Source: Mesorhizobium australicum (GTDB taxonomy: Bacteria > Pseudomonadota > Alphaproteobacteria > Rhizobiales > Rhizobiaceae). Taken from it: a DNA stretch of 64,000 nt. The stretch spans positions 1,488,001 to 1,552,000 of the forward strand of contig NZ_FXBL01000004.1 of assembly GCF_900177325.1 (NCBI RefSeq). The letters are read 5' to 3'. The translations under genes were made by a program, and so were the position numbers. Under the pieces are notes generated by a model. The model saw only the letters and a list, made by a program, of their open reading frames with translations. It had not been told where the DNA came from and did no database searches. Below, piece by piece: positions 27,332 to 56,849 of this stretch (its first letter is position 1; the number at the start of each line of letters is the position of its first letter).

Positions 27332-27407
27332 GCCGCTTTAGCTCAGTTGGTAGAGCACATCATTCGTAATGATGGGGTCGCGTGTTCGAGTCACGCAAGC
27401 GGCACCA
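27332..27407 (+). tRNA. tRNA-Thr (anticodon CGT)
   Basis: A complete 76-base cloverleaf with encoded CCA. The acceptor stem GCCGCTT (27332-27338) pairs with AAGCGGC. D-arm GCTCAGTTGGTAGAGC, anticodon stem CATCA/TGATG with loop TTCGTAA (CGT at 27365-27367), and T-arm GCGTG-TTCGAGT-CACGC. The 3' 34 bases are duplicated at 56816-56849, marking it as a probable integration target. Confidence 0.96.
27374..27407 (+). other. Probable attL: tRNA-Thr 3' end (34-bp direct repeat)
   Basis: From GGGGTCGCGTGTTCGAGTC to the CCA end, this 34-base block is identical to 56816-56849. Sequence outside the block differs on both sides (AT / GC before, AAA / CCC after). It contains the T-arm and 3' acceptor strand, the part of tRNA genes classically used as attB by tyrosine integrases. 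Confidence 0.85.
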
Positions 27408-27743
27408 AATCTCTCAACAAAACCGGCACTTTGGGTTTTGCTGCGCATCGTCTTTTGATGCCGGTGCCTCGTCTCGACTTTTTTGCGGCCGAGGCTCGTC
27501 GTCTTGGCCAAGGCGGATCCGGCAGTCGCATAGTTGGCGCGACCGTCGGTGGGCAGCCTCCATCTGGCGATCCTGATCCTGCTTGAGATCAATCTCACGA
27601 ATCCGCCTTTCGGCATCGGACCTCGCGGGTCGCATTCTCGATAGAGGTGCGCCGGTGAACTCAGACCATGGCCTGTGCCCGTCACCGCCCGGCCTTCGCA
27701 ATTCCGCCGAAATACCAGGTGGGCGTTCGACAAGCAGGCATTT
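27408..27743. other. Island left end without recognisable gene
   Basis: This stretch follows the tRNA, where an integrase gene would be expected. A 131-codon minus-strand frame (27338-27733) exists, but it runs into the tRNA and resembles nothing I know; another frame nearby is Arg/Glu-rich. I see no integrase motif in any frame. It may be a decayed gene remnant. Confidence 0.5.
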
Positions 27744-27762
27744 TATAACCGTTTAGTAATGC
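27744..27762 (+). promoter_or_regulatory. Candidate LysR operator A upstream of the LLM gene
   Basis: TATAACCGTTTAGTAATGC. Eighteen bases match the site at 34150-34167 with only two differences, and the ATAACC.TTT.GT core recurs at 35246. A possible -10 (TATAAA, 27805-27810) without a good -35 lies downstream. This would place the operator near -65 relative to a start around 27817, the usual position of a LysR recognition site at an activator-dependent promoter. Confidence 0.55.
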
Positions 27763-27919
27763 AACAGCCACAAGACCTCTATCACTCGTCTAGGCGCAGT
27801 TCTCTATAAAATCCTCCCACGCTGGCGAGTTGAGATGCGGGCCCAAATGCGCCCGCTGCACCCTGGGGCCTGTGACCCCTCTTGGGCGGAACGTTCCCGG
27901 CGATGCAAGGGAGTGCTCA

Positions 27920-29107
27920 ATGCGCGATATCTCACGTGGTCAGCAATCGATGAAGCCGCGAAAGGTGGACGACAAGATGCGATTCGGCCTCATGTGGCCG
28001 AACTCGCCATCTCCAAACGTAACGTCATTGGCCGTTGCCGAGCGGAACCCCGACGTGCTCGACATGGATTCGCATATCGCGCTTGCCCGCACTGCCGAGA
28101 AAATTGGCGTGGATTTCGTCTTTTTCGCTGACGGCTACACCAATCACGGCGAGCACAATGCACGCGTTGGCCATGGCGAGCCCTGCATATCCGCACCGAT
28201 CTGGGCGCCGATCGTCATGGCCGCGACCGATCACATCGGGGTCGTGACGACGATGCACGCCCGCTACCTGTCGCCCGTCGTCCTCGCGCGTCTGGGAGCC
28301 AATCTGGATGTCCTGAGCGGTGGGCGCTGGGGTTGGAACATCGTGCCTGGCGCCAAGGGGTCCGAGGCCAGGCTGTTCGGCATTTCGAGCGAGATCGAAC
28401 ACGACGAGCGCTATGCGGTGGTGGAAGAGACGCTGGCTGCGGTCCGTGCCCTTTGGAACGCGCGCGGCAAGCCGATCGATTTCAACGGAAAATACTATCA
28501 TCTGGAAGGTGTGCCGCGCGGCCCCTATCCGGTCCAGGAGAGCCCGCTAATCTTCAACGCAGGCGTTTCTCCTGCTGGCCAGGACTTCATAGCACGCAAT
28601 GCCGACTACGCCTTCTTCGCGGTCGTGGAAGATCTCGCACAGGTGGCAAGGACGGTGGAAGAACTGGGCGACAAGACAGAGGCGAGCGGCCGCTCCCGAC
28701 TGGAGGTCAACCTCGCCGGCTCGATCGGGTATGTCATCGGGTCGACTGCGGCCGAAGCGCAGGAGAAATACGACTGGATCCGCGACTCGGTCGATATGGA
28801 TGCGGCGCGCGGGTGGGCGCGGGGATTCCTCTCCGGGAGCCAGACGTATCAGAGCAATTTCGGCGGCGAGTTCGATGAGGCCGCCCGCAAGATCGGTCTT
28901 GCGGCCGGCAGCCGCGTTCTGGTCGGGACGGCCGCCGACGTCGCCGAACAGATCATCGAGATCAACCGGCAGACCGGCCTGCGCGGCTTTATGTGGCTCA
29001 GTCTCATCTGGGATCCGGCGGAGGTTGCGCTGCTCGGCGATGTCCTGCCGTATCTGGAGAAGGCGGGTCTGTGGGAGCCGCCGTCCTCACGCGGCTGGTC
29101 GTGGTGA
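27920..29107 (+). CDS. LLM-class FMN-dependent monooxygenase (RutA/DszA-like)
   Basis: A 395-residue bacterial-luciferase-fold monooxygenase that uses reduced FMN from a partner reductase and O2. Characteristic parts include MRFGLMWPNSPSP, HIALARTAEKIGVDFVFFADG, ISAPIWAPIVMAATDHIGVVTTMHARYLSPVVLARLGANLDVLSGGR (in pieces) and WGWNIVPGAKGSEARLFG. The NIVPG loop and length place it with RutA/DszA/NtaA-type oxygenases that attack C-N, C-S or ring carbonyl bonds. Start ATG 27920 has AAGGGAG about 7 bases upstream; the frame extends further 5' without such a signal. A flavin reductase encoded 0.8 kb downstream probably supplies FMNH2. Substrate unknown. Confidence 0.88.
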   Translation: MRDISRGQQSMKPRKVDDKMRFGLMWPNSPSPNVTSLAVAERNPDVLDMDSHIALARTAEKIGVDFVFFADGYTNHGEHNARVGHGEPCISAPIWAPIVMAATDHIGVVTTMHARYLSPVVLARLGANLDVLSGGRWGWNIVPGAKGSEARLFGISSEIEHDERYAVVEETLAAVRALWNARGKPIDFNGKYYHLEGVPRGPYPVQESPLIFNAGVSPAGQDFIARNADYAFFAVVEDLAQVARTVEELGDKTEASGRSRLEVNLAGSIGYVIGSTAAEAQEKYDWIRDSVDMDAARGWARGFLSGSQTYQSNFGGEFDEAARKIGLAAGSRVLVGTAADVAEQIIEINRQTGLRGFMWLSLIWDPAEVALLGDVLPYLEKAGLWEPPSSRGWSW

Positions 29108-29114
29108 AACGGCC

Positions 29115-29876
29115 ATGAGCGGGTTTGTAGGGCGCAATGCAATCGTCACGGGAGCCAAGGGCGATATAGGCCGTTCCATCGCCGAAGATCTGGCGCGGCG
29201 TGGCGTGAATGTCTGGGGTGTCGACATCGGGTTCCAGGAGCAGCTCGCGCCGCAGCCGCTTGGGAGCGGGACGATCGCCAGCATGCCGCTCGATGTCACC
29301 GATTCGGCTGCAGTGAGGGCTGCGTTTTCGCAGATCGAGCAGCAGGCAGGTCCGACATCCCTCCTCGTCAATGCGGCCGGCGGCCCGGGAAAGGTTCGAG
29401 CTCCAGTCGATCAGGTCGAGGATGTGGACTGGCACAAGGTCGTGACGCTCAACCTGGATGGGCTCTTCTACTGCTGTCGCCAGGCGGCGCGCTCCATGAA
29501 GGCTGCCGGAGGGGGAGCGATCGTGAACGTCTCGTCAGGCGCTGGCAGGACTTACACGAGGACCGGCGTCCAGGCCTACGCCGCAGCGAAGGCAGGTGTG
29601 ATCGGCCTGACGCGGCAGCTCGCCCGCGAACTCGGCCCCTTCGGTGTTCGCGTGAACTGCGTTGCGCCAGGGCTAGTCGCGGTCGCCGCAACTCGGGAGG
29701 AGATCGAATCCATACCATCCGAAACCATGAGCGCGCACCTCGGCAACATAGCGCTCGGACGGTTGGGGCGACCCGATGATCTCGTCGGACCGGTGCTCTT
29801 CTTCCTCGGCGAGGATGCGAGCTTCGTCACCGGCCAGACCATCAGCGTCGATGGCGGGTCCATCATGCTCGGCTAG
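29115..29876 (+). CDS. Short-chain dehydrogenase/reductase (SDR)
   Basis: A 253-residue classical SDR. The NAD(P)-binding motif reads TGAKGDIG, with VDIG at the end of the second strand suggesting NAD preference. The NAG motif is NAAGGPG. The catalytic Ser is in NVSSGAG and the catalytic Tyr-Lys pair in QAYAAAKAG, giving Tyr-x-x-x-Lys. The C-terminus SFVTGQTISVDGGSIMLG is standard for the family. It follows the monooxygenase by 7 bases and so is co-transcribed, probably oxidising an alcohol intermediate or reducing a ketone in that pathway. Confidence 0.92.
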   Translation: MSGFVGRNAIVTGAKGDIGRSIAEDLARRGVNVWGVDIGFQEQLAPQPLGSGTIASMPLDVTDSAAVRAAFSQIEQQAGPTSLLVNAAGGPGKVRAPVDQVEDVDWHKVVTLNLDGLFYCCRQAARSMKAAGGGAIVNVSSGAGRTYTRTGVQAYAAAKAGVIGLTRQLARELGPFGVRVNCVAPGLVAVAATREEIESIPSETMSAHLGNIALGRLGRPDDLVGPVLFFLGEDASFVTGQTISVDGGSIMLG

Positions 29877-29920
29877 AGCGAAGGCGTTGGCGAGCAACCG
29901 AGGGAGCCACGAGCCTGCAA

Positions 29921-30442
29921 ATGGTGCAAGACATATCATCCGCGAATACGATATCCGAGATCGATCCAGACTGTTTCCGCACGATCCTTCGGTCTGCGGC
30001 GGCAAGCGTGGTCGTAATCACAACCTGCGCGGACGGCGAGCTTCACGGCATGACGGCCACCGCCTTCTCAAGCGTCAGCGCCGATCCGCCGAGCGTACTC
30101 ATTGTGGTCAATCGCACCACCAGGAGCCATTCGCGCCTCCTGCGAAGCGGCCGCTTCGCGATCAACGTGCTGGCTGAGGACCAGGAGTGGATCGGCCAAC
30201 GGTTTGCCGGCAAAATCGAGGATCAGTTCAGCGGTGTGGGCCACATTGCAACCGCCGAAGGTCTGCCTGTTCTGACGGGATGCGCAGCCCACATGGAGTG
30301 CCGCACCCAGGAGACAGTGGACGTGGGCACACACACGATCTTTGTCGGCCGCGTCGTCGCCGGTAAGGCAGAACCGGCTGCTCCGCTCCTCTATCACGAC
30401 GGTCGGTTCAAGGCGTTGGCGCCTTCGCGCGAGGCGAGCTGA
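29921..30442 (+). CDS. Flavin reductase family protein (HpaC/RutF-like)
   Basis: A 173-residue FMN-binding split-barrel flavin:NAD(P)H reductase. Family features are FRTILRSAAASVVVITTCADGELHGMTATAFSSVSADPPSVLIVVNRTTRSH (read in parts) and GRFAINVLAEDQEWIGQRFAG, then HTIFVGRVVAG near the end. It supplies reduced flavin to two-component monooxygenases, here most simply the LLM enzyme encoded two genes upstream (44-base gap to the SDR). It converges with the M28-like gene. Confidence 0.9.
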   Translation: MVQDISSANTISEIDPDCFRTILRSAAASVVVITTCADGELHGMTATAFSSVSADPPSVLIVVNRTTRSHSRLLRSGRFAINVLAEDQEWIGQRFAGKIEDQFSGVGHIATAEGLPVLTGCAAHMECRTQETVDVGTHTIFVGRVVAGKAEPAAPLLYHDGRFKALAPSREAS

Positions 30443-30491
30443 ACGCCGTTTGGCCGTCAGGTGAGGGGCCGGCAGGTTGAAACTCTTGTTC

Positions 30492-32219
30492 TCAGCCGAC
30501 CTGCTTTTCAGTCTCGATCTTCTCGAGGCACGACGTCGTTGCCGCGATCGCGCAATCCAGCGCATGCAAAACGCGGTTGTGTGCACGGCGGGCATCCACT
30601 GTGGCGAAACGGCGCCTGTCGCCGTCCTCTTCGACGGCCGCCAGATGGTGTAGCGGGGCCAGTGCCGGGAATGGAGGCTGCTGGAGTGCTGGATCCGGCT
30701 CGAATCTGTCACCGGTGGTGAACTGAATCGGCACCAGCGCTCGCGCTATGGCGACCAGCGTGGCGTTGATCGTGTTCAAAGTCGTCTCGGAATCCGTCTT
30801 TCCGGCGGCTACGCTGACCTTCCCGACTAGTTGGTCAAGCAACGCCGCGCGGCTCGTCAGCGCCGCAATATCCATCCAGCGGACAAGATCCTTGGCGATG
30901 TCCTCCAGTGCGTCGTGCAGCTCGCGCGCCGCACCAGAAAAATCAAATGGCAGGATGGCGTCGCAGAGTGCACGCAGCACGATGTTGGCATAGAAGCGAG
31001 CGTCACGGACGAGCACATCCGCGTCGATCTTGTCGAGCGTGTCGCCCTCTGTGTGCCACCACCAGCCGAGCGGGTGCGGAAAGTGCTCATGCATACCGCT
31101 CGAGACCGGCTGTTCTCCAAAGGCAAGGATGGCTGGAATGCCGATACCCCAGAATGACTGGTCGCCAAACCGGCCGAGGCGTTTGACGTGGATGGGTTCG
31201 CCGGAGACTTCCTCCATGACGACTTCGGCGGTCTTCCAGAGTTCGGGGCCGGACAGCGATACAAAATCGTGGTTCCCGCGCCCGCCCGTCGAGTCGATGT
31301 TCACGTGCAGGACGCAGTTCCGTTCGAGATCGTCCCAGAAGTTATCAGCATACCAGGCAGACCCGGCATAGCGCCCTTGCGAATGGCCCGACCAGAAGGC
31401 AAGCCGCAGGCCTCTGCGCAGGTGGCGGCGGTTCGCTGCGGCTATCCGCGCCACTTCAAGCATGGTGACGTTGGCGGTGCCGTTGTCCATCACACCGTAA
31501 TGCCAGGTATCGTGGTGTCCGGAGAACAGTACATAGCTGCCGTCCGCCGGAGCTATCGGGTCAAGGTCGGCGATCAGCATCGGGATCTGCCGCCAGCCGG
31601 TGTCGACGTCGGCATGCATGACGATCTCGATTTTCTCGCCTGCGGCAAGGCGCGCTTTCAATCGGGCGCCGTCAGGTCCCGACACCGTGCACGCAACGGT
31701 TCGGGGCAACTGCTGCCTGGTTTCGAGCCCGGGGTTCCCCCAGACGGGAGACAGCGTCATCTCGTGCCGATGCTCGTCAGGACTGACGTGAAGATGCCCG
31801 GCGGCGCCGGCGTGTCTGAGCCTGTTGGCCACGGCCGGCGTCGCGAGGCCATCCACGACGGCAATCCGTCCAGCCAGATCGATACCCCTGAGGTCTGCGG
31901 GCATGCCCTTTCCGACATAGACGAGGTCGCCGCGCAAGCCATCCTTCGGAGACGACAGAGAGAAGGAATGAGTAATGCACTCCATCGAGTCGCCTGGTAT
32001 TTCGACGGTCGCCGAGCCGGGGAGGCTGATGTAGGCGTCGTGGAACAAGATCGCCGTGCGCAGGCCCATGCCAGCGGCCCTAGCCTCAAGATAGCGCAGA
32101 CTTTCGAGTTCGTCGGGGGTGCCTGGATATTTCGTCCATCGCGCAATCGTCGTCAGATCGGCAAGCATCGCTGTGCCGTCGACGGCGTCCATCGACGCCA
32201 TCCTCGTGCGCTTGTCCAT
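30492..32219 (-). CDS. M28-like zinc peptidase/hydrolase with altered active site
   Basis: A 575-residue M28-family metallohydrolase with a PA-like insert (about 95-200). Metal ligands H235 and D237 (FSGHHDTWHYG), D245 (MDNGTAN), D309 (HVNIDSTGG) and a C-terminal His (WWWHTEGDTLDKID) are conserved. The position normally holding the catalytic and metal-binding Glu-Glu (WxxEExG..GS) reads FWSGHSQGRYAGS, so both Glu are replaced by His-Ser. It has no clear signal peptide. Start MDKRTRMASMDAV (32219); an open frame continues upstream over the preceding gene's end. It is last in a minus-strand trio with two alpha/beta hydrolases (gaps 22 and 19 bases). Likely an amide or ester hydrolase in the pathway, or a divergent non-peptidase. 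Confidence 0.82.
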   Translation of the reverse strand: MDKRTRMASMDAVDGTAMLADLTTIARWTKYPGTPDELESLRYLEARAAGMGLRTAILFHDAYISLPGSATVEIPGDSMECITHSFSLSSPKDGLRGDLVYVGKGMPADLRGIDLAGRIAVVDGLATPAVANRLRHAGAAGHLHVSPDEHRHEMTLSPVWGNPGLETRQQLPRTVACTVSGPDGARLKARLAAGEKIEIVMHADVDTGWRQIPMLIADLDPIAPADGSYVLFSGHHDTWHYGVMDNGTANVTMLEVARIAAANRRHLRRGLRLAFWSGHSQGRYAGSAWYADNFWDDLERNCVLHVNIDSTGGRGNHDFVSLSGPELWKTAEVVMEEVSGEPIHVKRLGRFGDQSFWGIGIPAILAFGEQPVSSGMHEHFPHPLGWWWHTEGDTLDKIDADVLVRDARFYANIVLRALCDAILPFDFSGAARELHDALEDIAKDLVRWMDIAALTSRAALLDQLVGKVSVAAGKTDSETTLNTINATLVAIARALVPIQFTTGDRFEPDPALQQPPFPALAPLHHLAAVEEDGDRRRFATVDARRAHNRVLHALDCAIAATTSCLEKIETEKQVG

Positions 32220-32238
32220 CGGGTCTGCTCTCGCTGTG

Positions 32239-33147
32239 TCAGTGAACACTGCCGGCGCCTCGACCTTCGTCGAGGGCGCCGACGAATCCTGCGACGATGC
32301 CGTTGAACACGCTCGGCTGTTCACGGAATGGCATATAGCCGGCGCGGCCGATGATCCGCAGGTGAGCGGTTCCCTGTCGCGGCGCGATCAGCCGGAAAAG
32401 AGCCATCGCGTTTTGCACGGGGCTCATCGGATCATTCTGTCCCCACACCAGCATGACAGGACAAGGGACACCCTGTTCGCGAAACCGCGTCCAGTTGTCG
32501 ACCCGCATTCGCGACAGGGTCGGCCGCACGGAGGTGTCGTATTCGTTCTTGCCGTGAAGCCTCTCGCGCAGTGCCTTAAACTGGTGCGACTGGCCGACCA
32601 GGACTGCTTCGTCGAGGAAGCGTCCAGCATCGATATGATGACCGTTCCACGATTGGCGCTCCATGACCCAGGCCTGCGCCGTACGGCCATAGCGGGGTTC
32701 GAGCGGCGCCGACAACGTGAGGTTGGACAAAGGATCGCCGGCGGGCGCGACGGCCTTGCCGGCGACGATGGTGACCGAGCGGATCAGTTCCGGAGCCTCG
32801 AAGGCGAGCCTCAGGGCGGCCAAACCGCCTTCATCATGGCCGACAAGATGAACCGGTCCGCCGACGGTAATGTCGAGGAAAGCCCTCGCATGTTCGATCA
32901 CGCGATCGAAGCCGTAGCTCTGCTCACTCGGAATGCCCGTTCGACCTTGTCCCAATGCATCAAAGGCGACCACTCGGGCCCGACTTCCGATTTCTTCCAG
33001 ATTGGCCTCCCACACCCGCAGATTGTGGCAGACGCCTTGATCGGCGAGGGCATTCGCGTGAAGAAACGCAATGGTGGAGGGGCCGCTTCCGGTCTCGACG
33101 TAGCGGGTTCGCACTCCTCCGGCCTCGACCCATCTGTCCTCAAGCAT
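32239..33147 (-). CDS. Alpha/beta hydrolase with Asp nucleophile and missing catalytic His
   Basis: A 302-residue alpha/beta-hydrolase-fold protein. The nucleophile elbow is VGHDEGG with Asp-105 instead of Ser, as in epoxide hydrolases and haloalkane dehalogenases. The usual acid is present (VWGQNDPMSP, D239), but the histidine loop reads IIGRAGYMPFREQP: Tyr-271 stands where His is expected (AGHHPFHEHP in the next gene upstream). It therefore may be inactive as a classical hydrolase or use altered chemistry. Start MLEDRWVEAGG has GAGGAA upstream; longer frames overlap the neighbouring gene. Middle gene of the minus-strand trio. Confidence 0.85.
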   Translation of the reverse strand: MLEDRWVEAGGVRTRYVETGSGPSTIAFLHANALADQGVCHNLRVWEANLEEIGSRARVVAFDALGQGRTGIPSEQSYGFDRVIEHARAFLDITVGGPVHLVGHDEGGLAALRLAFEAPELIRSVTIVAGKAVAPAGDPLSNLTLSAPLEPRYGRTAQAWVMERQSWNGHHIDAGRFLDEAVLVGQSHQFKALRERLHGKNEYDTSVRPTLSRMRVDNWTRFREQGVPCPVMLVWGQNDPMSPVQNAMALFRLIAPRQGTAHLRIIGRAGYMPFREQPSVFNGIVAGFVGALDEGRGAGSVH

Positions 33148-33169
33148 TCTGATCTGTTCCTCGTTCTTG

Positions 33170-34048
33170 TCAGCGCCTGAGGCGTGCCAGGAATTCCAGC
33201 ATGATGGCGTTGAACTGGGCGGGGTGTTCGTGAAACGGGTGGTGGCCGGCCTCGTTGATGAGGTGAAAGGACGCGCCGGCGTCGCGCGAGGAGATGAGCT
33301 GAAACAAATCCACGGCAGCTTCGAGTGTGGTCGTGTGATCGTTGTAGCCCCAGATGATCTGCGTCGGCCGGCCAAGTCCGGCATCGCTGATCCATTGCAG
33401 TGTCTCGCGTTTGAGCGGCGCCAGTTGGCGCAGGAAGAGTGTCTCGGCGAGTCCACCCCTGGTCATCTTCATGACCGCTTCCTGGTATTTGGGCAGGCGG
33501 AGAACTTCGTAGCCGGCCTCTACGAGGGGCTCGACGATGCTCTCGGGTCGATAGGCGCAACGCTCGAACACCCAGCGTTGGGACTCGCGCGATACGGGCG
33601 GGAAGGGGCATCCCGACAGCTCGACCTCATTCAATCCCACGCCCGGCGAAAGAGTGCCTGTATTGACCAGTGTGCAACTGCGGATGAGCTCGGGGCACTC
33701 GAGCGTCAGTCGCGCGGCAAGCATCGCGCCCCTGGACTGCCCGACGATATGTATCCCGCGCAGGCCAAGCGCCGACAGGAACGAGGCGGCATGCGCGACC
33801 ACCGCCTGCATGCGGTAGTCGTCATTCGCAGGGTTGTCTGTGTGTCCTTGGCCAAGCTTGTCGAATGCGATCACCCGATACTGACGCGATAGGACCTCGA
33901 AGTTCCCATGCCAGATCTCGACTACCGAAGCCGAACTGGGGGATCCGAAATTCCCTCCGGTGATGAGGGCGATGGGTTCGCCGGCTCCCTTGTCAAAGTA
34001 GCGCGTCCGAATTCCGTTGATCTCGATCCATTTCGGCGTTCCCAGCAC
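33170..34048 (-). CDS. Alpha/beta hydrolase (meta-cleavage-product-hydrolase-like)
   Basis: A 292-residue alpha/beta hydrolase with an intact triad: nucleophile Ser-105 in HIVGQSRGAMLAAR, Asp in IIWGYNDHTT and His in NEAGHHPFHEHPAQFNAIMLEFL. The oxyanion-hole strand reads LITGGNFGSPSSAS. The overall pattern is similar to C-C hydrolases that cleave ring-fission products, and to lactone hydrolases and esterases. It is the first gene of the minus-strand trio. A candidate LysR operator lies about 110 bases upstream. Cytoplasmic, with no signal peptide. Confidence 0.88.
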   Translation of the reverse strand: MLGTPKWIEINGIRTRYFDKGAGEPIALITGGNFGSPSSASVVEIWHGNFEVLSRQYRVIAFDKLGQGHTDNPANDDYRMQAVVAHAASFLSALGLRGIHIVGQSRGAMLAARLTLECPELIRSCTLVNTGTLSPGVGLNEVELSGCPFPPVSRESQRWVFERCAYRPESIVEPLVEAGYEVLRLPKYQEAVMKMTRGGLAETLFLRQLAPLKRETLQWISDAGLGRPTQIIWGYNDHTTTLEAAVDLFQLISSRDAGASFHLINEAGHHPFHEHPAQFNAIMLEFLARLRR

Positions 34049-34148
34049 GGCGAATTCTGCTCCGATGATCTGAGCGCTCTGTGCGCTCGTTCATGGGGCG
34101 ATCTTGCATGCGGTCGCTGGTAGGAAAACTCTAGGAAGAGTTCAAAAC

Positions 34149-34167
34149 ACATAACCATTTGGTAATG
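34149..34167 (-). promoter_or_regulatory. Candidate LysR operator B upstream of the hydrolase trio
   Basis: ACATAACCATTTGGTAATGC lies in the 136-base gap between the first hydrolase start (34048) and the LysR stop. It shares ATAACC.TTT.GTAATGC with site A. The core AACCA-TT-TGGT is an imperfect dyad, as expected for a LysR-type site. Confidence 0.55.
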
Positions 34168-34184
34168 CGGGATTGGATGGTCGA

Positions 34185-35222
34185 TCAGAAGGACAAGGAA
34201 TCAGGCTCTACCGGCGGGCCGGTCCAGCGGAAGTTTGGGACCGACCTACTCTCCTTGGGGTTGAAGCGCAGGATGAGGAAATCGCGCAATCTACACGTGG
34301 CCGGCGACAGTACCCGATCGCTGAGCCATGTCAGCTGGACGGTGTCGCCGATATCGTAGATCGGAAGGTTCACGCGTTCGCCCACTCCCTGGCCCATGTG
34401 GGTGTCGCTCGCCGGAGAGCCCGCATTCGCGTACACGTCGAGACCTTGGCCGATCGCAACGGGCAGGACGGTCAACAGCTGGGCTTCGCGCAGCAAGGCG
34501 AGGCTCAGGACCAGGGAATTAGTTTCGATCACATCAGCGGGAAACGGCAGGTCGAGTTTCTTGAGCAAGACTTCAAGATGGCGCCGGGTGCGGGTGCCGA
34601 TCGGCGCCACGCACCACGGATACTGGACTGCGTCCCTCCATACAGGGTTCGACTCGGCCAACAGCGGATGCCCTCGGCTGGCGAAAATCATATGATGCGC
34701 GGCCTTGATCGGGACGCTCACGTGTTTGAAGCGCGGTTCGTCATCGGCGAGAGGGCTGATGATGAGATCGACGTGGCCGCGCTCCGCCTGTTCCATCAGC
34801 TCGTGATAAGGTGCGTCGATCAGGCTCACCGCTATTTTCGGAAAGATCGCCTTGAACCTGGCCACGGCGGTTGCGAGGTTCGGCAGAAGCGCATAGGTCC
34901 GTATCCCGACCACGACGCTGCCATGCACGCCTTCGCGCAGATGCATCAGTTCGTCGTTGACGGAGTCGATCTCGCTCAAAATCAGGTAGGCGGCATCAAT
35001 CAGTCTCGCGCCGATCTCGGTCGGCTGCCAGCGTTCGAGGTCATGCCTGAAAAGCGGCATGCCAATGATGTCCTCGATCTCGGCTTTCGTCTTCGACACG
35101 GCCGCTTGGGTGACGCCCATCTGCTCGGCGGCCAGGCTGATCGACTTCATCTCATTGATCGCCCGGATGAGGCGCAGATGGCGGATCTTCAGGCGCTGAC
35201 GAAGGAAATTGGTGCTGATCAT
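34185..35222 (-). CDS. LysR-family transcriptional regulator
   Basis: A 345-residue LysR regulator. The N-terminal winged helix-turn-helix (about 10-70) reads LKIRHLRLIRAINEMKSISLAAEQMGVTQAAVSKTKAEIEDIIGMPLF in pieces; the C-terminal effector-binding domain (about 100-310) follows. It is somewhat longer than the 300-residue norm, with a C-terminal tail. The gene lies between the hydrolase trio and the TRAP operon. Copies of ATAACCrTTTrGT occur 26 bases before its own start, ahead of the trio, and ahead of the LLM operon, so it probably controls all of module 1 in response to a pathway intermediate. Confidence 0.92.
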   Translation of the reverse strand: MISTNFLRQRLKIRHLRLIRAINEMKSISLAAEQMGVTQAAVSKTKAEIEDIIGMPLFRHDLERWQPTEIGARLIDAAYLILSEIDSVNDELMHLREGVHGSVVVGIRTYALLPNLATAVARFKAIFPKIAVSLIDAPYHELMEQAERGHVDLIISPLADDEPRFKHVSVPIKAAHHMIFASRGHPLLAESNPVWRDAVQYPWCVAPIGTRTRRHLEVLLKKLDLPFPADVIETNSLVLSLALLREAQLLTVLPVAIGQGLDVYANAGSPASDTHMGQGVGERVNLPIYDIGDTVQLTWLSDRVLSPATCRLRDFLILRFNPKESRSVPNFRWTGPPVEPDSLSF

Positions 35223-35244
35223 AGGTCTCTCACCGGCGCTCAGG

Positions 35245-35263
35245 AATAACCATTTGGTTAACT
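35245..35263. promoter_or_regulatory. Candidate LysR operator C in the lysR/dctP intergenic region
   Basis: AATAACCATTTGGTTAACTG; AACCA-TT-TGGTT is a perfect 5-bp dyad. It lies 23 bases upstream of the LysR start codon, suited to autorepression, and about 300 bases before dctP on the other strand. It shares ATAACC.TTT.GT with sites A and B. Confidence 0.55.
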
Positions 35264-37126: not shown

Positions 37127-37127
37127 G

Positions 37128-38828: not shown

Positions 38829-38922
38829 TGGTGATCGCGGCGACCAGCTTTGGCTCGTCTTCAATCGGACGAAGAGTGCCAATCATGACCCAGGTGATCA
38901 CGCCTGCTGCTGCGGCGCGGGC

Positions 38923-45853: not shown

Positions 45854-45897
45854 CGTTCTCCGCCTCCCGAACCTTCTTATAAAACCGGAGCATTCAG

Positions 45898-46749: not shown

Positions 46750-46753
46750 CCCC

Positions 46754-48105: not shown

Positions 48106-48115
48106 AAGGTCGGCG

Positions 48116-49354: not shown

Positions 49355-49388
49355 CCATTTGGTCGCACGGTTCGGATCCAGGAAACCC

Positions 49389-49946: not shown

Positions 49947-50039
49947 CCTGTCCGCAGGTTGAACACCTCAGATCGAGACGTTGCGCGGACCGCGCGAATG
50001 AAGGTTCCTTGGGTTGCAGTTGTTCAAGGAGGAGGAACG

Positions 50040-51245
50040 ATGTCGGCTTCCACGAAATCCACGAGCCAGTGGGACAGCCCGCCCGTCTATGATGTCGACA
50101 TCTACTCCGACGAGGTCATTGCCGACCCCTATCCGCACTACCAGCGTATCCGCGATGCCGGCGCCGCGGTCTGGTTGCCTGCAAACGGGCTATGGGCGAT
50201 CGGTCGCCACGCGGACGTGCGCGCGTGCCTCGCAGACCATGAGACGTTCCGATCCGGAAACGGCGTTTCGGGAAACGAGGCTGCCAACAGGATGGCACCC
50301 GGGAACCTGCTCGCTTCCGATCCGCCGCTTCACGATCATCTGCGCCGCATCGTCGCCGCGCCGTTGAGTCCGCGCGGGCTGAACGACGTCAAAGGCCGTA
50401 TCGAGGCGACGGCGGAGGACCTTGTCGACCGGCTGGTCCGGCGCGGCACCTTTGACGGTATGATGGACCTTGCGCAGTACCTTCCGGTTTCCATCGTCTC
50501 CGAGCTGGTCGGAATGCCGGAACACGGGCGTGAGAACATGCTGCGCTGGGCGAGCGCGGTGTTCGACATGCTCGGCGGCGCCAACAAGCGCGGTGAGGAT
50601 GCGCTCCCTGTCGTCATGGAGATGCGGGCGTATACGGTCAACGAAGCGACGCGCGACAAGGTGCGGCCGGATGGCTGGGTGTCCATGCTCTATGAGGCTG
50701 CCGACAAGGGCCTTATACGCCCCGAGCAGGTGCAGATGCTGATGCGCGACTACCTCGGACCCAGTCTCGATACGACGATCTTCGCGACCGGCCACCTCCT
50801 GTATCTTCTGGGAACCAATCCCGAGCAGTGGCAGATGATCCGCGACGACCCGAGCCTGATACCCAATGCGATCAACGAGGCGGTCAGGGTGGAGTCGCCG
50901 ATCCGCGGGTTCACTCGCTATCTGGCCGATGACAAGGTGGTCGGTGACACCTTGATCCCGAAAGGCTCGCGGGCGCTGATGCTCTATGCGTCGGCCAACC
51001 GGGACGAGCGGCGCTGGGAAAAGCCCGAAACCTTCGACGTGAAGCGGGTGCTGACCGATCACGTCGGCTTCGGGCACGGTATCCATTCATGCGCCGGGAT
51101 GCAGTTGGCCCGGCTCGAGATCCGCAGCATCCTTACCTCGATGGTGAAGCGGGTGAAGCGGGTTGAGGTGGGTGTTCCGGTCCTGGCGATGAACAATGTC
51201 CTCAGGGGCTACGAACGCCTGCCGGTGAGGTTCGTCGCGGACTGA
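50040..51245 (+). CDS. Cytochrome P450 (class I, bacterial)
   Basis: A 401-residue soluble P450. The heme thiolate is C351 in GFGHGIHSCAGMQLARLE, the ExxR pair is E280/R283, and the I-helix reads YLGPSLDTTIFATG with D244-T245 retained, although the usual Ala-Gly before the acid/alcohol pair is replaced by Pro-Ser. AAGGAGGAGGAACG directly before ATG 50040 is a very strong ribosome-binding site. Co-encoded ferredoxin and reductase supply electrons. Such systems hydroxylate or O-demethylate aromatic acids, terpenoids and similar compounds. It is the last gene of module 2 and could perform the entry oxidation. Confidence 0.95.
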   Translation: MSASTKSTSQWDSPPVYDVDIYSDEVIADPYPHYQRIRDAGAAVWLPANGLWAIGRHADVRACLADHETFRSGNGVSGNEAANRMAPGNLLASDPPLHDHLRRIVAAPLSPRGLNDVKGRIEATAEDLVDRLVRRGTFDGMMDLAQYLPVSIVSELVGMPEHGRENMLRWASAVFDMLGGANKRGEDALPVVMEMRAYTVNEATRDKVRPDGWVSMLYEAADKGLIRPEQVQMLMRDYLGPSLDTTIFATGHLLYLLGTNPEQWQMIRDDPSLIPNAINEAVRVESPIRGFTRYLADDKVVGDTLIPKGSRALMLYASANRDERRWEKPETFDVKRVLTDHVGFGHGIHSCAGMQLARLEIRSILTSMVKRVKRVEVGVPVLAMNNVLRGYERLPVRFVAD

Positions 51246-51458
51246 AAAACAGGAAAGAAAGAGGGAGTTGGGAGAGAGAAGGCCCAGGGAAAGGCCGGCG
51301 ACATTGCCAGTCGGCTTGCACTTTCCGCTCTTCAGTCCCGTCAAACACCTTATCTCGGTGTCAACGAAACCCGCAGCTCGAGAACGTGCTTGATATGTTG
51401 GTGCGCCTGGACGTTGCTGACTTGCTCGCCGCCTTCGGTGACGAACGGTCTGCTCGAC
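51246..51458. other. Spacer between P450 and tetR
   Basis: The spacer holds a purine-rich start (AACAGGAAAGAAAGAGGG) and no gene I can support. The P450 and tetR genes converge here. I see no classic hairpin terminator. Confidence 0.35.
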
Positions 51459-52043
51459 CTAGGCGCGAGGGCGCTGCATGAAATCGGCGACCACGATCTC
51501 TGCGATCTTCACGAAGCGCGGCGCGGCTCCCTCGGGCCCGACGATGCGCCAGTTGCACCGGGCGCCCTCGATCAGGAGCGTGAGCGCGTCGACAAGCAGC
51601 TCGGCATCGGCCACGCCGGCATCGCGGCAAAGCTGGATCACGCGGGTCCGATAGAGCTGTCTGATGTCCTTGACGAACTTCTGGGCCGGATGATCGCTGT
51701 CCACCAACTCCGCGGCCGCGTCGAGAATCTCGCAGTTGCAATGCTCCATGGTGAGGAAGTCACCCGCGCGGTGCACCCAGTCGTTTAGCTGCGCCTTCGG
51801 ATCGCCGGGATTGGCCGCCTCGATATCCGCCCAGAAGGCTTCGGCCTCCGCCGCGGCTTCCTTGAGGCACACGACGATCAGGTCGTCCTTCGAGCCGAAA
51901 TGGCGGTAAAGCGTCATCTTGTTGCTGTCGGCCGCTTCGGCGATCGCGTCGACGCCGATGCCGTTGATACCGTGCTTCCTGAACAGGTCGCGCGCTGCGT
52001 CGATGATGCGCTCCCGCGGCGGATGTTTGACAGCAATCGTCAT
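51459..52043 (-). CDS. TetR-family transcriptional regulator
   Basis: A 194-residue TetR repressor. The N-terminal HTH (about 10-55) reads PRERIIDAARDLFRKHGINGIGVDAIAEAADSNKMTLYRHFGSKDDLI (in parts), a near-canonical TetR pattern. The C-terminal ligand domain contains EHCNCEILDAAAEL. It is divergent from the RND efflux operon with two 18-bp TGTTAC-N6-GTAACA operators between them, so it most likely represses both itself and the pump until a toxic aromatic or product binds. Confidence 0.93.
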   Translation of the reverse strand: MTIAVKHPPRERIIDAARDLFRKHGINGIGVDAIAEAADSNKMTLYRHFGSKDDLIVVCLKEAAAEAEAFWADIEAANPGDPKAQLNDWVHRAGDFLTMEHCNCEILDAAAELVDSDHPAQKFVKDIRQLYRTRVIQLCRDAGVADAELLVDALTLLIEGARCNWRIVGPEGAAPRFVKIAEIVVADFMQRPRA

Positions 52044-52089
52044 GATCGTTTCCTCGCTTCCGATCTTCTCGTCGGCTCGCTCTTGACAA

Positions 52090-52130
52090 TGTTACCAAGG
52101 CGTAACATCTACTGTTACCAGATAGTAACA
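52090..52130. promoter_or_regulatory. Twin TetR operators in the tetR/RND intergenic region
   Basis: Two perfect 18-bp dyads: TGTTACCAAGGCGTAACA (52090-52107) and TGTTACCAGATAGTAACA (52113-52130). Half-sites TGTTAC/GTAACA are identical in both; centres are 23 bases apart, about two helical turns. A TTGACA box (52083-52088) ends 1 base before the first dyad, so repressor would cover a plus-strand promoter. Confidence 0.88.
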
Positions 52131-52251
52131 TCGGCGTCGCAAGTCAACAATATAGGCCGTTCGGGAACACCGCGTAAACGCGTGTGTCGCGATGGCGTTC
52201 GGGTCAATCGGCATGGCAGACGCCGTCGAGCGGCTTGGGAAGGAATTCAGC

Positions 52252-55200
52252 ATGGTGGGGTTCTTCATCCAGCGGCCGATCTTCGCGACCGCAATCGCGA
52301 TCATCATGGTGCTGGCCGGCGGCATCTCTTACTTCCTGTTGCCGGTTTCGCAATTCCCCGACATCACGCCGCCGCAGATCGTGGTCGCCGCGAATTATCC
52401 CGGCGCGAGCGCGCAAGTGGTCGCCGATACGGTGACCACGCCGCTCGAGCAGCAGCTCAACGGCGTGCCCGGCATGCTCTACATGTCGTCGACCAGTTCG
52501 AACGACGGCTCGGCCCGCATCACCATCTCGTTCCAGGTCGGCTATCCGATCGACATCGCCGCGATGGATGTGCAGAACCGGGTCTCGCAGGCTTCTCCAT
52601 CGCTGCCCGCGCTGGTCAACCAGACCGGCGTGACCGTCATCAAGCAGAACCCGAACTTCAACGTCCTGGTCAACCTGGGCTCCCCGGACAACTCCGTCGA
52701 CTTCACCACGCTCAGCAACTACGCCTATCTGCAGATTCTCGATCCGATCAAGCGCCTGCCGGGCGTCGGCGACGTGCAGTTCTTCGGCGAGCGCCGCTAT
52801 TCCATGCGCGTCTGGCTCGATCCCGACAAGATGGCGAGCCTCGGCGTGACGGCTGTCGACGTCCAGAACGTCATCCAGGAACAGAACATCCAGGTCGCCG
52901 CCGGCAAGATCGGCCAGGCACCCGCGCCGGCGGGCACGGCCTTCGAGATGCAGGTCAACGCCGTCGGCCGCCTGAGCGACCCGCAGCAGTTCGGCGACAT
53001 CGTCCTGCGCGTGGATCCGAAAACGGGTGCGGCGACCCGCCTGCGCGACGTGGCGCGCATAGAACTCGGCGCCCTGCTTTACTCCTCGTCCTTCAGCCTG
53101 AACGGCCAGGACAGCGTGGTCCTGGCCATCCTGCAGGCGCCGGGCTCGAACGCGCTCGACCTGCAGAACAACGTCAAGGCCAAGATGGAGGAGCTCTCCA
53201 AGCGCTTCCCGTCCGGCATGGCCTACAACATGTTCTACGACACGACGCGCTTCGTCTCCGCTGCGATGGAAGACGTCGTCAAGACGCTGGTCGAGGCGCT
53301 CGTTCTCGTCGTGCTGGTCGTCTTCATCTTCCTGCAGAGTTGGCGCGCCACCTTGATCCCAATCATCGCGATCCCGGTATCGCTGGTCGCGACGTTGACG
53401 GTCATGTACCTGCTCGGCTTCTCGCTCAACATGCTGTCGCTGCTCGGCATGGTGCTGGCGATCGGGCTCGTCGTCGACGACGCGATCGTGGTCGTCGAGA
53501 ACGTTGAGCGACAGTTGGAGGCGGGACTGCCGCCGCTCGCGGCGGCAAAGAAGGCGATGCAGGAGGTCACCGGGCCGATCATCGCCACGACCGGCGTGCT
53601 GCTTGCCGTCTTCGTGCCGGTCGCCTTCATTCCCGGCGTTGCGGGCCAGCTCTACAACCAGTTCGCCCTGACGGTCGCGATTTCCTTCGCGATCTCCGCG
53701 TTCAACTCGCTGACGCTCAGCCCGGCACTGAGCGCGGTGTTCCTGCGCTATCGCGGCGAGTCCCAGTTCATCCTCTTCCGCTGGTTCAATGCCGGCTTCC
53801 ACTGGATGTCGCACATCTATGCCGGCAGCATCAGGACGTTCGTCCGCTGGCGCTGGCCACTGCTCGGTCTGTTCGCGCTCGGACTGGCCGGCACGTACAC
53901 CCTGTCGCAGCGCATCCCCTCGACCTTCCTGCCAGTCGAGGATCAGGGCTACTTCTTCGTTGTGCTGCAGCTTCCCGACGGCGCGTCGGTGGAGCGCACC
54001 GCCGCGGTGGCGAAGAAGTCCGAGGAGATTCTGCGCAGCCTGCCGGGGGTTGAATCCGTCGGCTCGGTCGTCGGCTTCTCCTTCCTGAGCTTCGCCAACC
54101 AATCGAACGCCGGCGTCCAGTTCGCCGTTCTCAAGCCGTGGGACGAGCGAGGCCCCGGAGAGAGCGCGACGGCCTTGCGCACGATCGCGCAGGGCAAGCT
54201 CATCCAGATACCCGACGCGCTGGTGCTGGCCTTCGACCCGCCGTCGATCCAGGGTCTCGGCACGACCGGCGGCTTCGAGTTCCAGGTGGAGGACTTGACC
54301 GGACGCGGCGCCGTCGCCCTCGACGAGACGACGCAGGCCCTGCTGGCGGAGGCTCGCAAGCAGCCGGAGCTCAACCCCTTCGCGCTGTTCACGACCTTCA
54401 GCACCTCGACGCCGCAATATTCCTACGACCTCGACCGCAACAAGGCGAAGCTGCTCGGCCTCAGCCTGCCGGACGTCTTCTCGACGTTGCAGATCTATCT
54501 CGGCTCGCTCTACGTCAACGATTTCAACCTGTTCGGGCGCACGTTCCGCGTCACCCTGCAGGCGGAACCGGATGCGCGCGCCTCGGCGACCGACATCTCC
54601 CGCCTCTATGTGCGCAGCTCTTCCGGCGACATGGTGCCGCTGAGCACGCTCGGCCAATTGAAGTCGATGGCGGGCCCGGAGACGATCACCCACTACAACA
54701 ATTACCCATCCGCGCTGGTGAACGGCGCGGCGGCGGAAGGGTTCAGCTCCGGCCAGGCCGTGGCCGCCATGGAACGCGCCGCCGCGACCGCCCTGCCGAG
54801 GGATTTCGCCTTCGAATGGACCGGGATCACCTACCAGGAGATCAGGGCGGGCTCGATCGCCAATCTGGTCTTCGGGATCGCCATCGTCTTCTGCTTCCTC
54901 GTGCTGGCCATGCAGTACGAAAGCTGGTCGATGCCCTTCGTGGTGCTGCTCGCGGTTCCGCTTGCCCTGCTCGGCGCACTGCTCGCGCTGTGGCTGCGCG
55001 GAATGCAGATCGACGTCTACTCGCAGATCGGCTTCGTGATGCTGATCGGCCTCGCCGCCAAGAACGCGATCCTCATCGTCGAGTTCGCCAAGCGGCGGCG
55101 CGAGGAAGGCGTGGAGATCGTCGCTGCCGCGATCGAAGCCGCGCGCCTGCGCCTGCGGCCGATCCTGATGACGGCCTTCGCCTTCATTCTCGGCGTCGTG

Positions 55201-55392
55201 CCGCTGATGACCGCGACTGGCGCCGGCGCGGCCAGCCGGCAGTCGATCGGCACCACCGTCTTCGGCGGTATGCTGGTCGCCACCGTCCTGACCCTGGTCT
55301 TCGTGCCGATCTTTTATGTCGTTCTTGAATCCTGGCGTGAGCGCCTGTCGCCCCGCTCGTCCGCCCGCGATGCGGCCGAGCCGGCGGAATAG
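52252..55392 (+). CDS. RND multidrug efflux transporter, AcrB/HAE1-like
   Basis: A 1046-residue inner-membrane proton-driven pump subunit. It opens MVGFFIQRPIFATAIAIIMVLAG, has the proton-relay Asp pair in GLVVDDAIVVVENVERQL and the conserved Lys in IGLAAKNAILIVEFAKRR. Two large periplasmic loops separate 6+6 membrane segments, as in AcrB. ATG 52252 has AAGGA upstream; an in-frame start at 52192 would add 20 residues not seen in the family. It precedes the adaptor gene, the reverse of acrAB. No TolC is nearby, so a chromosomal outer-membrane channel would be used. Confidence 0.95.
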   Translation: MVGFFIQRPIFATAIAIIMVLAGGISYFLLPVSQFPDITPPQIVVAANYPGASAQVVADTVTTPLEQQLNGVPGMLYMSSTSSNDGSARITISFQVGYPIDIAAMDVQNRVSQASPSLPALVNQTGVTVIKQNPNFNVLVNLGSPDNSVDFTTLSNYAYLQILDPIKRLPGVGDVQFFGERRYSMRVWLDPDKMASLGVTAVDVQNVIQEQNIQVAAGKIGQAPAPAGTAFEMQVNAVGRLSDPQQFGDIVLRVDPKTGAATRLRDVARIELGALLYSSSFSLNGQDSVVLAILQAPGSNALDLQNNVKAKMEELSKRFPSGMAYNMFYDTTRFVSAAMEDVVKTLVEALVLVVLVVFIFLQSWRATLIPIIAIPVSLVATLTVMYLLGFSLNMLSLLGMVLAIGLVVDDAIVVVENVERQLEAGLPPLAAAKKAMQEVTGPIIATTGVLLAVFVPVAFIPGVAGQLYNQFALTVAISFAISAFNSLTLSPALSAVFLRYRGESQFILFRWFNAGFHWMSHIYAGSIRTFVRWRWPLLGLFALGLAGTYTLSQRIPSTFLPVEDQGYFFVVLQLPDGASVERTAAVAKKSEEILRSLPGVESVGSVVGFSFLSFANQSNAGVQFAVLKPWDERGPGESATALRTIAQGKLIQIPDALVLAFDPPSIQGLGTTGGFEFQVEDLTGRGAVALDETTQALLAEARKQPELNPFALFTTFSTSTPQYSYDLDRNKAKLLGLSLPDVFSTLQIYLGSLYVNDFNLFGRTFRVTLQAEPDARASATDISRLYVRSSSGDMVPLSTLGQLKSMAGPETITHYNNYPSALVNGAAAEGFSSGQAVAAMERAAATALPRDFAFEWTGITYQEIRAGSIANLVFGIAIVFCFLVLAMQYESWSMPFVVLLAVPLALLGALLALWLRGMQIDVYSQIGFVMLIGLAAKNAILIVEFAKRRREEGVEIVAAAIEAARLRLRPILMTAFAFILGVVPLMTATGAGAASRQSIGTTVFGGMLVATVLTLVFVPIFYVVLESWRERLSPRSSARDAAEPAE

Positions 55393-55406
55393 AATCGGAG
55401 TTTGAA

Positions 55407-56561
55407 ATGCGCAGTCTCAAATATGGTCTCCACGGAACCGTTCTCGCGCTGGCGGTGGCCAGCGGCTATCTCCTGGCGCAGAACGGCTGGAACGTCAGCA
55501 GCACCGCTGCCGGCGCGGCGCCATCGGCACCCGCTCCTCAGGCAATGCCGGTCCCGGTGGTCAGCGTCGTCAAGAAGACGATCCCGATCTATCTCGAATA
55601 CGCCGCGCGGACGGAAGCGATCCGCAACGTCACTCTTCAGGCGAAGGCCTCGGGCTACCTGCAGCGACAGCTGGTGGCCGACGGCACGGATGTGAAGGCA
55701 GGCGACCTTCTCTACAAGATCGACCCGAGCGACTATCAGGCCGCGCTCGATCAGGTGAAGGCGCAGATCAAGCGCGACGAGGCGTCTCTCGACTACCTTC
55801 GCTCGAACCTGACGCGCGGCAGCGAACTCGCGTCCAGCGGATATCTCGCCAGAGACGGCTTCGACCTGCGCCAGAGCGCAATGCGCCAGGGCGAGGCATC
55901 ACTGGCAATGTCGCGCGCGGCCGAGCACACCGCCGAGCTGAATTTGCAGAATACGGAAATCCGTGCGCCCTTCGCCGGGCGGCTCGGACGCAACCAGGCG
56001 CCGGAGGGAACGCTGATCGCCAGCTCAGCCGGCACGCCGCTCAACACTCTGGTCCAGCTTTCGCCGATCTACGTCACCTTCAATCCGAGCGAGACCGAGC
56101 TTGCGGAGATCCAGAAGGCGTTCGCGAACGGCACCGTGGACACTGAGGTCTTCGTTCCGGGCAGCGACCAGGAGCCGCGCAAGGGACGCCTGACGTTCAT
56201 CGACAATGCCGTCGAGCGCAACACCGGAACGGTCGTGGCGCGCGCCACGATCGAAAACGCCGACTTCTCCCTCCTGCCGGGTCAATACGTCCGCATTCGT
56301 CTTCGGCTGCGGGAACTGCCCGACGCCCTGATGGTGCCCCAGACGGCGCTCGGCTCGAGCCAGTTCGGCAGGTACGTCTATGTGATTGGCAAGGACAATG
56401 TCGTGGAGCAGCGGATCGTCTCGCTCGGACCTGAGAACGGCCCTCTTGTCAGCCTCACGTCGGGGGTGGCCGAAGGCGACCAGATCATCTCGGGCAACCT
56501 GCAGAAGATCTTCCCCGGCGCGCCCGTACAGCCGATCAGCGACGGCGGTCAGCAGTCCTGA
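55407..56561 (+). CDS. RND efflux periplasmic adaptor (membrane fusion protein)
   Basis: A 384-residue membrane-fusion protein. An uncleaved anchor or signal (TVLALAVASGYLLAQNGW) precedes a Pro/Ala linker, then the barrel-sandwich/lipoyl halves (VTLQAKASGYLQRQLVADGTDVKAGDLLYKIDP and ELNLQNTEIRAPFAGRLGRNQ), a hairpin helix pair, and a C-terminal beta barrel (VPQTALGSSQFGRYVYVIG). It starts 14 bases after the pump gene. It connects the inner-membrane pump to an outer-membrane channel. Last gene of the island before the right attachment repeat. Confidence 0.94.
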   Translation: MRSLKYGLHGTVLALAVASGYLLAQNGWNVSSTAAGAAPSAPAPQAMPVPVVSVVKKTIPIYLEYAARTEAIRNVTLQAKASGYLQRQLVADGTDVKAGDLLYKIDPSDYQAALDQVKAQIKRDEASLDYLRSNLTRGSELASSGYLARDGFDLRQSAMRQGEASLAMSRAAEHTAELNLQNTEIRAPFAGRLGRNQAPEGTLIASSAGTPLNTLVQLSPIYVTFNPSETELAEIQKAFANGTVDTEVFVPGSDQEPRKGRLTFIDNAVERNTGTVVARATIENADFSLLPGQYVRIRLRLRELPDALMVPQTALGSSQFGRYVYVIGKDNVVEQRIVSLGPENGPLVSLTSGVAEGDQIISGNLQKIFPGAPVQPISDGGQQS

Positions 56562-56627
56562 TGCCATGCGGCTAAACGCGTCGACCGCTTTACGTGTTCG
56601 GGGTCGCGGGAGGTTGGAGAAGCCCCG

Positions 56628-56651
56628 TGGCCGTCATGGCGATGACGGCCA
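56628..56651 (+). terminator. Hairpin after the efflux adaptor gene
   Basis: TGGCCGTCAT / ATGACGGCCA form a 10-bp perfect stem around GGCG, 67 bases after the adaptor stop. No T tract follows, so it is a probable but not classic terminator. Confidence 0.45.
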
Positions 56652-56815
56652 TAGGGCGATGGGAATGGCACCCCGCTAATGGAATGCTGACCCAATTTGA
56701 GGCGGCCTGCACGGTCGGGCACGACAACCCAGCTACAGCCCCTGCCGTCAGCAAGTGAAGAATCCTTCAGGACAATCGGAGGATTAGATTCTTCGAGCGC
56801 TTGGGCACCAAAGGC

Positions 56816-56849
56816 GGGGTCGCGTGTTCGAGTCACGCAAGCGGCACCA
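56816..56849 (+). other. Probable attR: 34-bp tRNA-Thr 3' fragment
   Basis: A perfect copy of 27374-27407, including the T-arm and the terminal CCA, with no 5' tRNA half in front of it (preceding bases are CACCAAAGGC). Direct orientation relative to the complete tRNA. It marks the right edge of the putative island; the ABM gene begins 24 bases further on. Confidence 0.88.

Follow-up and report, generated by a model that had tools for sequence, protein, structure and literature searches.

The described systems closest to the locus considered here are the tRNA-borne ICEs and IMEs of Mesorhizobium, which are reported to integrate at tRNA genes with att sites (PMC8627217). The locus lies in a window of 64,000 nucleotides (the whole stretch of Mesorhizobium australicum DNA that was analysed) and likewise comprises an island at a tRNA gene with att sites. 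Unlike the Mesorhizobium elements as outlined in that account, it is devoid of recognisable integrase or transfer genes beyond relics, and its cargo is catabolic. Among the papers found on tRNA-Thr, Mesorhizobium and catabolic islands none has a title or abstract opening that points to this island. We consider the segment 27374-56849 to be a genomic island brought in through site-specific recombination at the 3' end of tRNA-Thr(CGT), a reading to which we assign a probability of roughly 0.87.

The attachment-site repeat and the empty site

The integration target is an intact tRNA-Thr(CGT) gene on the plus strand (27332-27407, called by ARAGORN), the 3' end of which, CCA included, recurs as a 34-bp att core at the far end of the island. 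The two copies, at 27374-27407 and 56816-56849 (both plus strand; repeat search and comparison with the congener G006), agree at 34/34 positions, lie in direct orientation 29,442 bp apart and are flanked by bases that are not alike, which bears out the earlier note's claim of a perfect direct repeat with differing flanks whose left copy sits inside an intact tRNA-Thr. When up to three mismatches are allowed, the window contains the pattern at these two positions only, the rest of the 5.86-Mb genome adds no further copy, and 100 shuffles yielded no match.

The comparison with relatives that the earlier note had proposed places the breakpoints exactly on the repeat. In G006 paaG, tRNA-Thr, ABM and dpp are contiguous without the island; the left alignment to the window stops at 27407, the right one starts at 56816, and in G006 the two overlap by exactly the 34 bp. 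The site is also empty in G001, where ABM is absent. Together, the repeat and the exact empty site support integration at the tRNA 3' end as originally suggested, and the patterns named in advance as speaking against it are absent from the five congeners that could be scored: in none of them does this 29 kb occupy the site, and the only one with the right-hand repeat, G002, has an insert there. G003 was not scored: its tRNA lies on a 4,327-bp contig and the next gene is FtsH-like (M41 peptidase plus AAA). The suggestion that the incoming element restored the tRNA is not demonstrable, because the copies are identical and the original one cannot be told from the other.

Cargo of the island

The inventory drawn up earlier, comprising two degradation modules, two TRAP systems, LysR, IclR and TetR regulators and an RND pump, was verified. 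Module A opens on the plus strand with a luciferase-like FMN monooxygenase (27830-29107; related to NtaA/DmoA, below the curated cut-off), a short-chain dehydrogenase (29109-29876) and a flavin reductase (29921-30442). The minus strand encodes an M28-family peptidase-like protein (30492-32324), two alpha/beta hydrolases (32239-33156, with an estimated start in a frame open to 33456, and 33170-34048) and a LysR-family regulator (34185-35222), and a plus-strand TRAP transporter, DctP, DctQ and DctM (35304-38828), completes the module. Searches with single marker genes (limits of E <= 1e-90 or 1e-120, at most 8 or 4 first-look candidates scored per genome) did not find module A, the first 11.8 kb of the island, elsewhere; two of its marker genes had no match in 393 of the 394 family genomes at E <= 1e-120, the 394 being a sample from a larger group.

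The junction of modules A and B harbours a relic of a Ti-type TraA relaxase/helicase (38953-39117, plus strand; plasmid TraA match), whose 55 residues are at most 78% identical to plasmid TraA, so that this claim of the earlier note proved real. At the left edge a weak sequence match (60% over 35 aligned residues with a gap, E 1e-4) hints at a possible C-terminal relic of a MucR/Ros regulator (27473-27568, minus strand), for which the Pfam scan gave no match. The left-edge frame 27414-27752, considered as a TraA relic, matched three plasmid records with a best E of 0.3 and was rejected as unconvincing.

Module B starts with an MhpA-like FAD aromatic hydroxylase (39249-41018, plus strand) and an MhpR-like regulator of the IclR family that scores below curated cut-offs (40937-41776, minus strand). 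All further genes are on the plus strand and encode a TRAP transporter, DctQ, DctM and DctP (41628-44815), a BphC-like type I extradiol dioxygenase (44855-45853), a fumarylacetoacetate-hydrolase-family protein (45898-46749), a quinone oxidoreductase-like protein (46754-47785), a 2Fe-2S ferredoxin and ferredoxin reductase (47782-49354), a carboxymuconolactone-decarboxylase-family protein (49272-49946) and a cytochrome P450 related to CYP199 (49959-51245). The right frame for DctQ is 41628-42377; the candidate 41771-42349 has no Pfam match. Module C consists of a TetR regulator (51459-52043, minus strand), an RND efflux permease (52192-55392, plus strand) and a HlyD-type periplasmic adaptor (55407-56561, plus strand). 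Seven plasmid records match the 288 bp that close with the right repeat, five of them via the repeat itself and the remaining two by short, marginal matches (E 0.3 and 0.9).

The cargo probably serves the uptake, by the TRAP systems, and breakdown of aromatic acids or phenols, with pathway and substrate read from family assignment alone and several members below curated cut-offs. Catechol formation in module B would fall to the FAD hydroxylase and to the P450 and its redox partners, and the opening of that catechol to the extradiol dioxygenase and the FAH-family hydrolase. A two-component flavin monooxygenase in module A would provide an additional route, and toxic compounds would be exported by module C.

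A composite island

The comparison of composition inside and outside, another check laid out in advance, had a divided outcome: GC3 separates 27.8-51.2 kb from its surroundings, whereas the last 5 kb are host-like and dinucleotides separate little. Mean GC3 is 0.749 in module A (10 genes) and 0.762 in module B (12 genes), compared with 0.870 in the left flank (17 genes) and 0.874 in the right flank (5 genes); the outside sets were hand-picked, with four left frames (mean 0.737) and two right frames (mean 0.690) left out as probably wrong. Across all 28 outside frames, these six doubtful ones included, the mean is 0.839, and the contrast with A and B is smaller but persists (Mann-Whitney p 3e-5). 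Module C has a GC3 of 0.858 and is host-like (p 0.93 versus outside). In their dinucleotide signatures A and C stay within the range seen outside, which B alone exceeds.

Two of the three modules can be located elsewhere in congeners. The aromatic-degradation unit of module B (12 kb, 39245-51246) occurs in G002 (91% identity) and G005 (about 90%) at loci separate from the tRNA-Thr site, so that three genomes present it in three different surroundings; its homology has a common end at the P450 stop codon and starts within about 25 bp of one point. The TetR-RND efflux cassette of module C (51393-56561) is found elsewhere in G005, 95% identical. The island is thus a composite pieced together from modules. 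The idea of one foreign source for the whole island finds no support, since C is host-like in GC3 and has its counterpart in G005, whereas A and B differ from the host.

Probable integrase loss and route of entry

Thirteen matches to the PF00589 integrase family occur in the genome that carries the island (G000), none of them between 1515408 and 1544815 of contig C4; the nearest lie at 1186077 and 1855716, and no integrase gene is present near an island end. Among the island frames scanned, Pfam detected no serine recombinase, no transposase family and no transfer genes, TraA being represented by its 55-residue relic only. Remains of an integrase by the right repeat were sought by tblastn: neither the integrase of G002 nor the serine recombinase of G005 matched anything in the window at an E limit of 1, and a G002-like integrase is absent from G000 (E <= 1e-70). 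What marks an ICE or IME, an intact integrase together with a relaxase and/or a transfer system, is missing from the segment. Islands that target tRNA genes often lose their integrase, and we argue that its absence counts against the term mobile, not against the term island. Apparently without an insertion enzyme of its own, and with only the TraA relic and the possible MucR relic left, the island is probably stranded.

Entry by site-specific recombination would have joined a tRNA 3'-end attachment site of the incoming element to the 3' end of tRNA-Thr(CGT), keeping the tRNA whole and leaving a copy of the 34-bp core to mark the far end. The recombination would have been the work of a tyrosine integrase, such as G002 has next to its right repeat, and this enzyme would later have been lost. 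The TraA relic and the possible MucR relic suggest that the carrier would have been plasmid- or ICE-like, and the island would by now be immobile except where an integrase is supplied in trans.

A variant of this explanation, for which we see even odds and which can hold alongside it, is stepwise accretion: a small element bearing both repeats inserted first, its interior later took up modules A, B and C through transposition or another form of recombination, and the original integrase was lost. The separate loci of B and C in G002 and G005, the GC3 of C unlike that of A and B, and a TraA relic at the A/B junction instead of an island end all agree with it, as does the near-equal closeness of B to G002 and G005 despite unequal flanks (82.6-85.0% and 92.5-96.3% identity, respectively, in long alignments). 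Accretion is harder to reconcile with the lack of a transposase family among the Pfam matches of the scanned island frames and of any intermediate with some of the modules at the site in the five scorable congeners.

The tRNA-Thr(CGT) site as a hot spot

The tRNA-Thr(CGT) site is an insertion hot spot. Three congeners (G002, G004 and G005) carry other inserts there, which makes four different occupants in the genus with this island counted. In G002 a tyrosine integrase with an Arm-binding domain adjoins the right repeat, whereas the G005 insert is ICE-like and encodes a serine recombinase; the site in this Mesorhizobium-like genus thus hosts two recombinase classes. G005 also retains a broken tRNA-Thr, reduced to its 5' half, upstream of a complete gene, which shows that successive events occur at the site. 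This half gene and the variety of occupants lend some credit to the notion that the right repeat is a left-over of an earlier, different element and the cargo the remains of overlapping insertions and deletions, but the perfect identity of the repeats and the exact empty-site breakpoints make such a history unlikely. G014 and G034, relatives at the family level, likewise differ in the stretch from the tRNA to dpp. Their intervening genes were considered as islands and rejected: the frames scanned (two and three) look ordinary chromosomal, with DHO_dh, a histidine kinase, Ku and ABC transporter components. A reading of the 29 kb as ordinary variable chromosome, with a repeat that arose by chance or by duplication of a tRNA fragment, would find an analogy in these two genomes only, and in the face of the matchless shuffles and the exact empty site in G006 it is most improbable.

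We regard as doubtful the joint proposition that module B moves on its own as a discrete catabolic unit, with no transposase recognised, and that the hot spot rewrites the host tRNA, with occupants of different recombinase classes installing different pair-conserving T-stem alleles. The alleles named in this connection are GCG/CGC and AGG/CCT.

Relation to known catabolic islands

The alkylphenol islands of Rhodococcus, described as carrying meta-cleavage genes (PMC6710988), resemble the present island in that aromatic-degradation genes reside on a genomic island; the host group differs, and the likeness is one of description. The product kinds of the first half of module B match a catabolic cluster of Pannonibacter phragmitetus (NZ_CP013069.1, NZ_CP032313.1), the shared kinds being an MhpA-like hydroxylase, a regulator, TRAP genes, an extradiol dioxygenase and an FAH; the DNA matches have 67-71% identity and cover 39-49% of each query piece. 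Unlike the island described here, the Pannonibacter cluster is located on a plasmid. With an exact empty site and known congener locations for two of its cargo modules, the island is a cleanly bounded case of a catabolic island whose parts come from a shared gene pool and which then becomes stranded at a tRNA hot spot; islands of this kind are familiar, and the present one is well supported as an instance.

The repeat and the empty site

The intact tRNA-Thr(CGT) gene (27332-27407) ends in 34 bases that recur, identical and in the same direction, at 56816-56849, the two copies being 29,442 bp apart from start to start. With up to three mismatches allowed, no further copy was found in the window or in the rest of the four-contig, 5.86-Mb genome, and 100 shuffles returned no match. 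An earlier note had described this perfect direct repeat of the tRNA-Thr 3' end as bounding a 29.4-kb catabolic genomic island, and the repeat stands as described. Directly ahead of the right copy, 56804-56812 reads GGCACCAAA, nine bases that equal the tRNA end plus the next two bases on the left side; they may be what is left of a further tRNA 3' end, or a coincidence.

The site was compared among seven genomes of the genus including that of the window itself, with G003 left out because its contig ends there. In the congener G006 both flanks are contiguous: the left-flank alignment stops at window position 27407 and the right-flank alignment starts at 56816. On the G006 sequence they share exactly 34 bp, namely the repeat. 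The site is also empty in G001, where tRNA-Thr is followed by about 80 bp and then dpp, ABM being absent. The exact empty site in G006 bears out both the feature and its interpretation as an island integrated at a tRNA 3' end (27374-56849), and the expectation that relatives lacking it would have joined flanks.

A hot spot with other occupants

The tRNA-Thr site is a hot spot used by other elements, since G002, G004 and G005 carry different inserts there. These share with 27416-56815 no common stretch of at least 60 bp (blastn, E <= 1e-10), and the short additional matches from their genomes are to sequence outside the island. Family scans, which covered part of each insert, gave an impression of their content. 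In G005 about 55.9 kb separate the tRNA from dpp. The 3' end of this tRNA overlaps with a gene for a serine recombinase, and products encoded on the insert include a TraG-type coupling protein, ParB, a relaxase-helicase and MucR. At L064:2538-2753 a broken 5' half of tRNA-Thr is located 87 bp upstream of the complete gene; the complete gene has the other T-stem allele, and the arrangement possibly stems from an integration in which an entire replacement tRNA came in. The G002 insert is spread over two contigs, which would add up to at least about 31.7 kb, provided that they form one insert. Its right repeat is adjoined by a tyrosine integrase that has an Arm DNA-binding domain, and ten frames scanned on the other contig include subtilases, a radical SAM protein, a MauG-like peroxidase and a Mutator transposase. 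In G004 the tRNA and ABM are about 14 kb apart, and between them lies an Rhs/TcdB-like polymorphic toxin of 2,116 residues that contains an AHH nuclease domain (L068:9252-15602); no right repeat was found at up to seven mismatches.

The tRNA-Thr T-stem occurs in two pair-conserving forms. GCG/CGC is found in the window's genome (G000), G001, G004, G006, G036, the left copy of G002 and, with one change outside the T-stem, the family-level relative G014; AGG/CCT is found in G005, the family-level relative G034 and the right copy of G002. The two G002 att copies (L071:12649-12682 and L072:2032-2065) thus differ in four bases that keep the pairing, so that two alleles can be distinguished and the tRNA copy and the far-end copy can differ.

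Putative remnants of a carrier

A tyrosine-integrase family search of the window's genome gave 13 matches, none of them inside the island, and its scanned frames contained no recombinase or transfer family. What is present is a 55-residue TraA relaxase remnant (38953-39117), matched by 1,380 plasmid records (E <= 1e-3; best identity 78%), with eight of the twelve matches listed annotated as Ti-type TraA, and at the left edge a weak MucR-like C-terminus (60% over 35 residues, E 1e-4). With these remnants and no integrase found, the island looks like what is left of a plasmid- or ICE-like carrier that can no longer excise by itself.

Modular assembly

The island is a composite of modules A (27408-39244), B (39245-51246) and C (51393-56561). 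Module B aligns over 12,012 bp at 91.0% identity with G002:C65, a different contig from those with the G002 tRNA-Thr insert. Its match to G005:C1 near 0.56 Mb reaches about 90% and is interrupted by internal gaps, and that to G034 reaches 70.5%. The long alignments of the island flanks give 82.6-85.0% identity with G002 and 92.5-96.3% with G005, so B does not track core ancestry. In G000, G002 and G005 homology breaks off at the stop codon of the P450 gene, and its start lies no more than about 25 bp from a common point; in the more distant G034 the alignment sets in about 130 bp further on. Counting G000, 10 of 201 genomes have a relative of the module B dioxygenase (E <= 1e-60). Two internal stretches, of about 0.8 kb and about 1.7 kb, are missing from the quinone oxidoreductase and ferredoxin reductase/CMD region of the G005 copy (G005:C1:553828-563264), which may deprive its P450 of the reductase. 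A second common block of about 11 kb (78.5%) adjoins module B at G002:C65:205581-216916 and G005:C1:542454-553732, in opposite orientations relative to it.

Module C matches G005:C1:1280275-1285447 at 95.0% identity, and what lies on the right side of this G005 copy is present in G000 at 2.86 Mb, where the cassette is missing. Module A was not found elsewhere in searches with its monooxygenase and DctP: the monooxygenase matched only G000 itself among 201 genomes (E <= 1e-90) and among 394 family genomes (E <= 1e-120), as did DctP among the 394. In a large protein set (7,997 candidates scored, 98 proteins at E <= 1e-60) one relative of the monooxygenase is 97% identical and one, from Mesorhizobium sp. 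L-8-10, 85%; the other ten with an organism name, down to 61%, are actinobacterial, so the gene may have come from actinobacteria. Roughly 50 bp at the B/C junction (51328-51377) recur at G000:C4:499327-499376 (about 90% identity), and G001 and G004 contain similar stretches; this is possibly a small repeat with a part in joining modules.

Codon and k-mer usage, proposed as a further check, set only part of the island apart. Mean GC3 is 0.870 in left (n=17) and 0.874 in right flank genes (n=5), or 0.839 outside (n=28) once six doubtful frames are restored, against 0.749 in A (n=10), 0.762 in B (n=12) and 0.858 in C (n=3); relative to the 28 outside frames A and B together are lower (p 3e-5) but C is not different (p 0.93). 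The dinucleotide distances to the outside are 35.0, 46.2 and 50.5 for A, B and C, of which B alone exceeds its control (12-kb windows: mean 28.5, maximum 40.1; 5-kb windows: mean 36.1, maximum 58.6).

Predicted functions

Judging from family matches, module B encodes an MhpA-like hydroxylase, an MhpR-like regulator, a TRAP transporter, a BphC-type extradiol dioxygenase (match to 1han, E 1e-66), an FAH-family hydrolase and a P450 nearest CYP199 (E 6e-82) with ferredoxin and reductase, a set that would fit import of an aromatic acid or phenol followed by meta-cleavage. Para-substituted benzoates are substrates of CYP199 enzymes. Module A, which also has hydrolases and a TRAP transporter of its own, would fit a two-component flavin monooxygenase route, and module C is a predicted multidrug-type RND pump under TetR control.

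Relation to known elements

The exact empty site, the use of the hot spot by other elements, the lack of an integrase and the modular assembly are new beyond the earlier note. The use of tRNA-Thr by a Mesorhizobium IME has already been published (PMC8627217), and the island is a good example of an already known kind.
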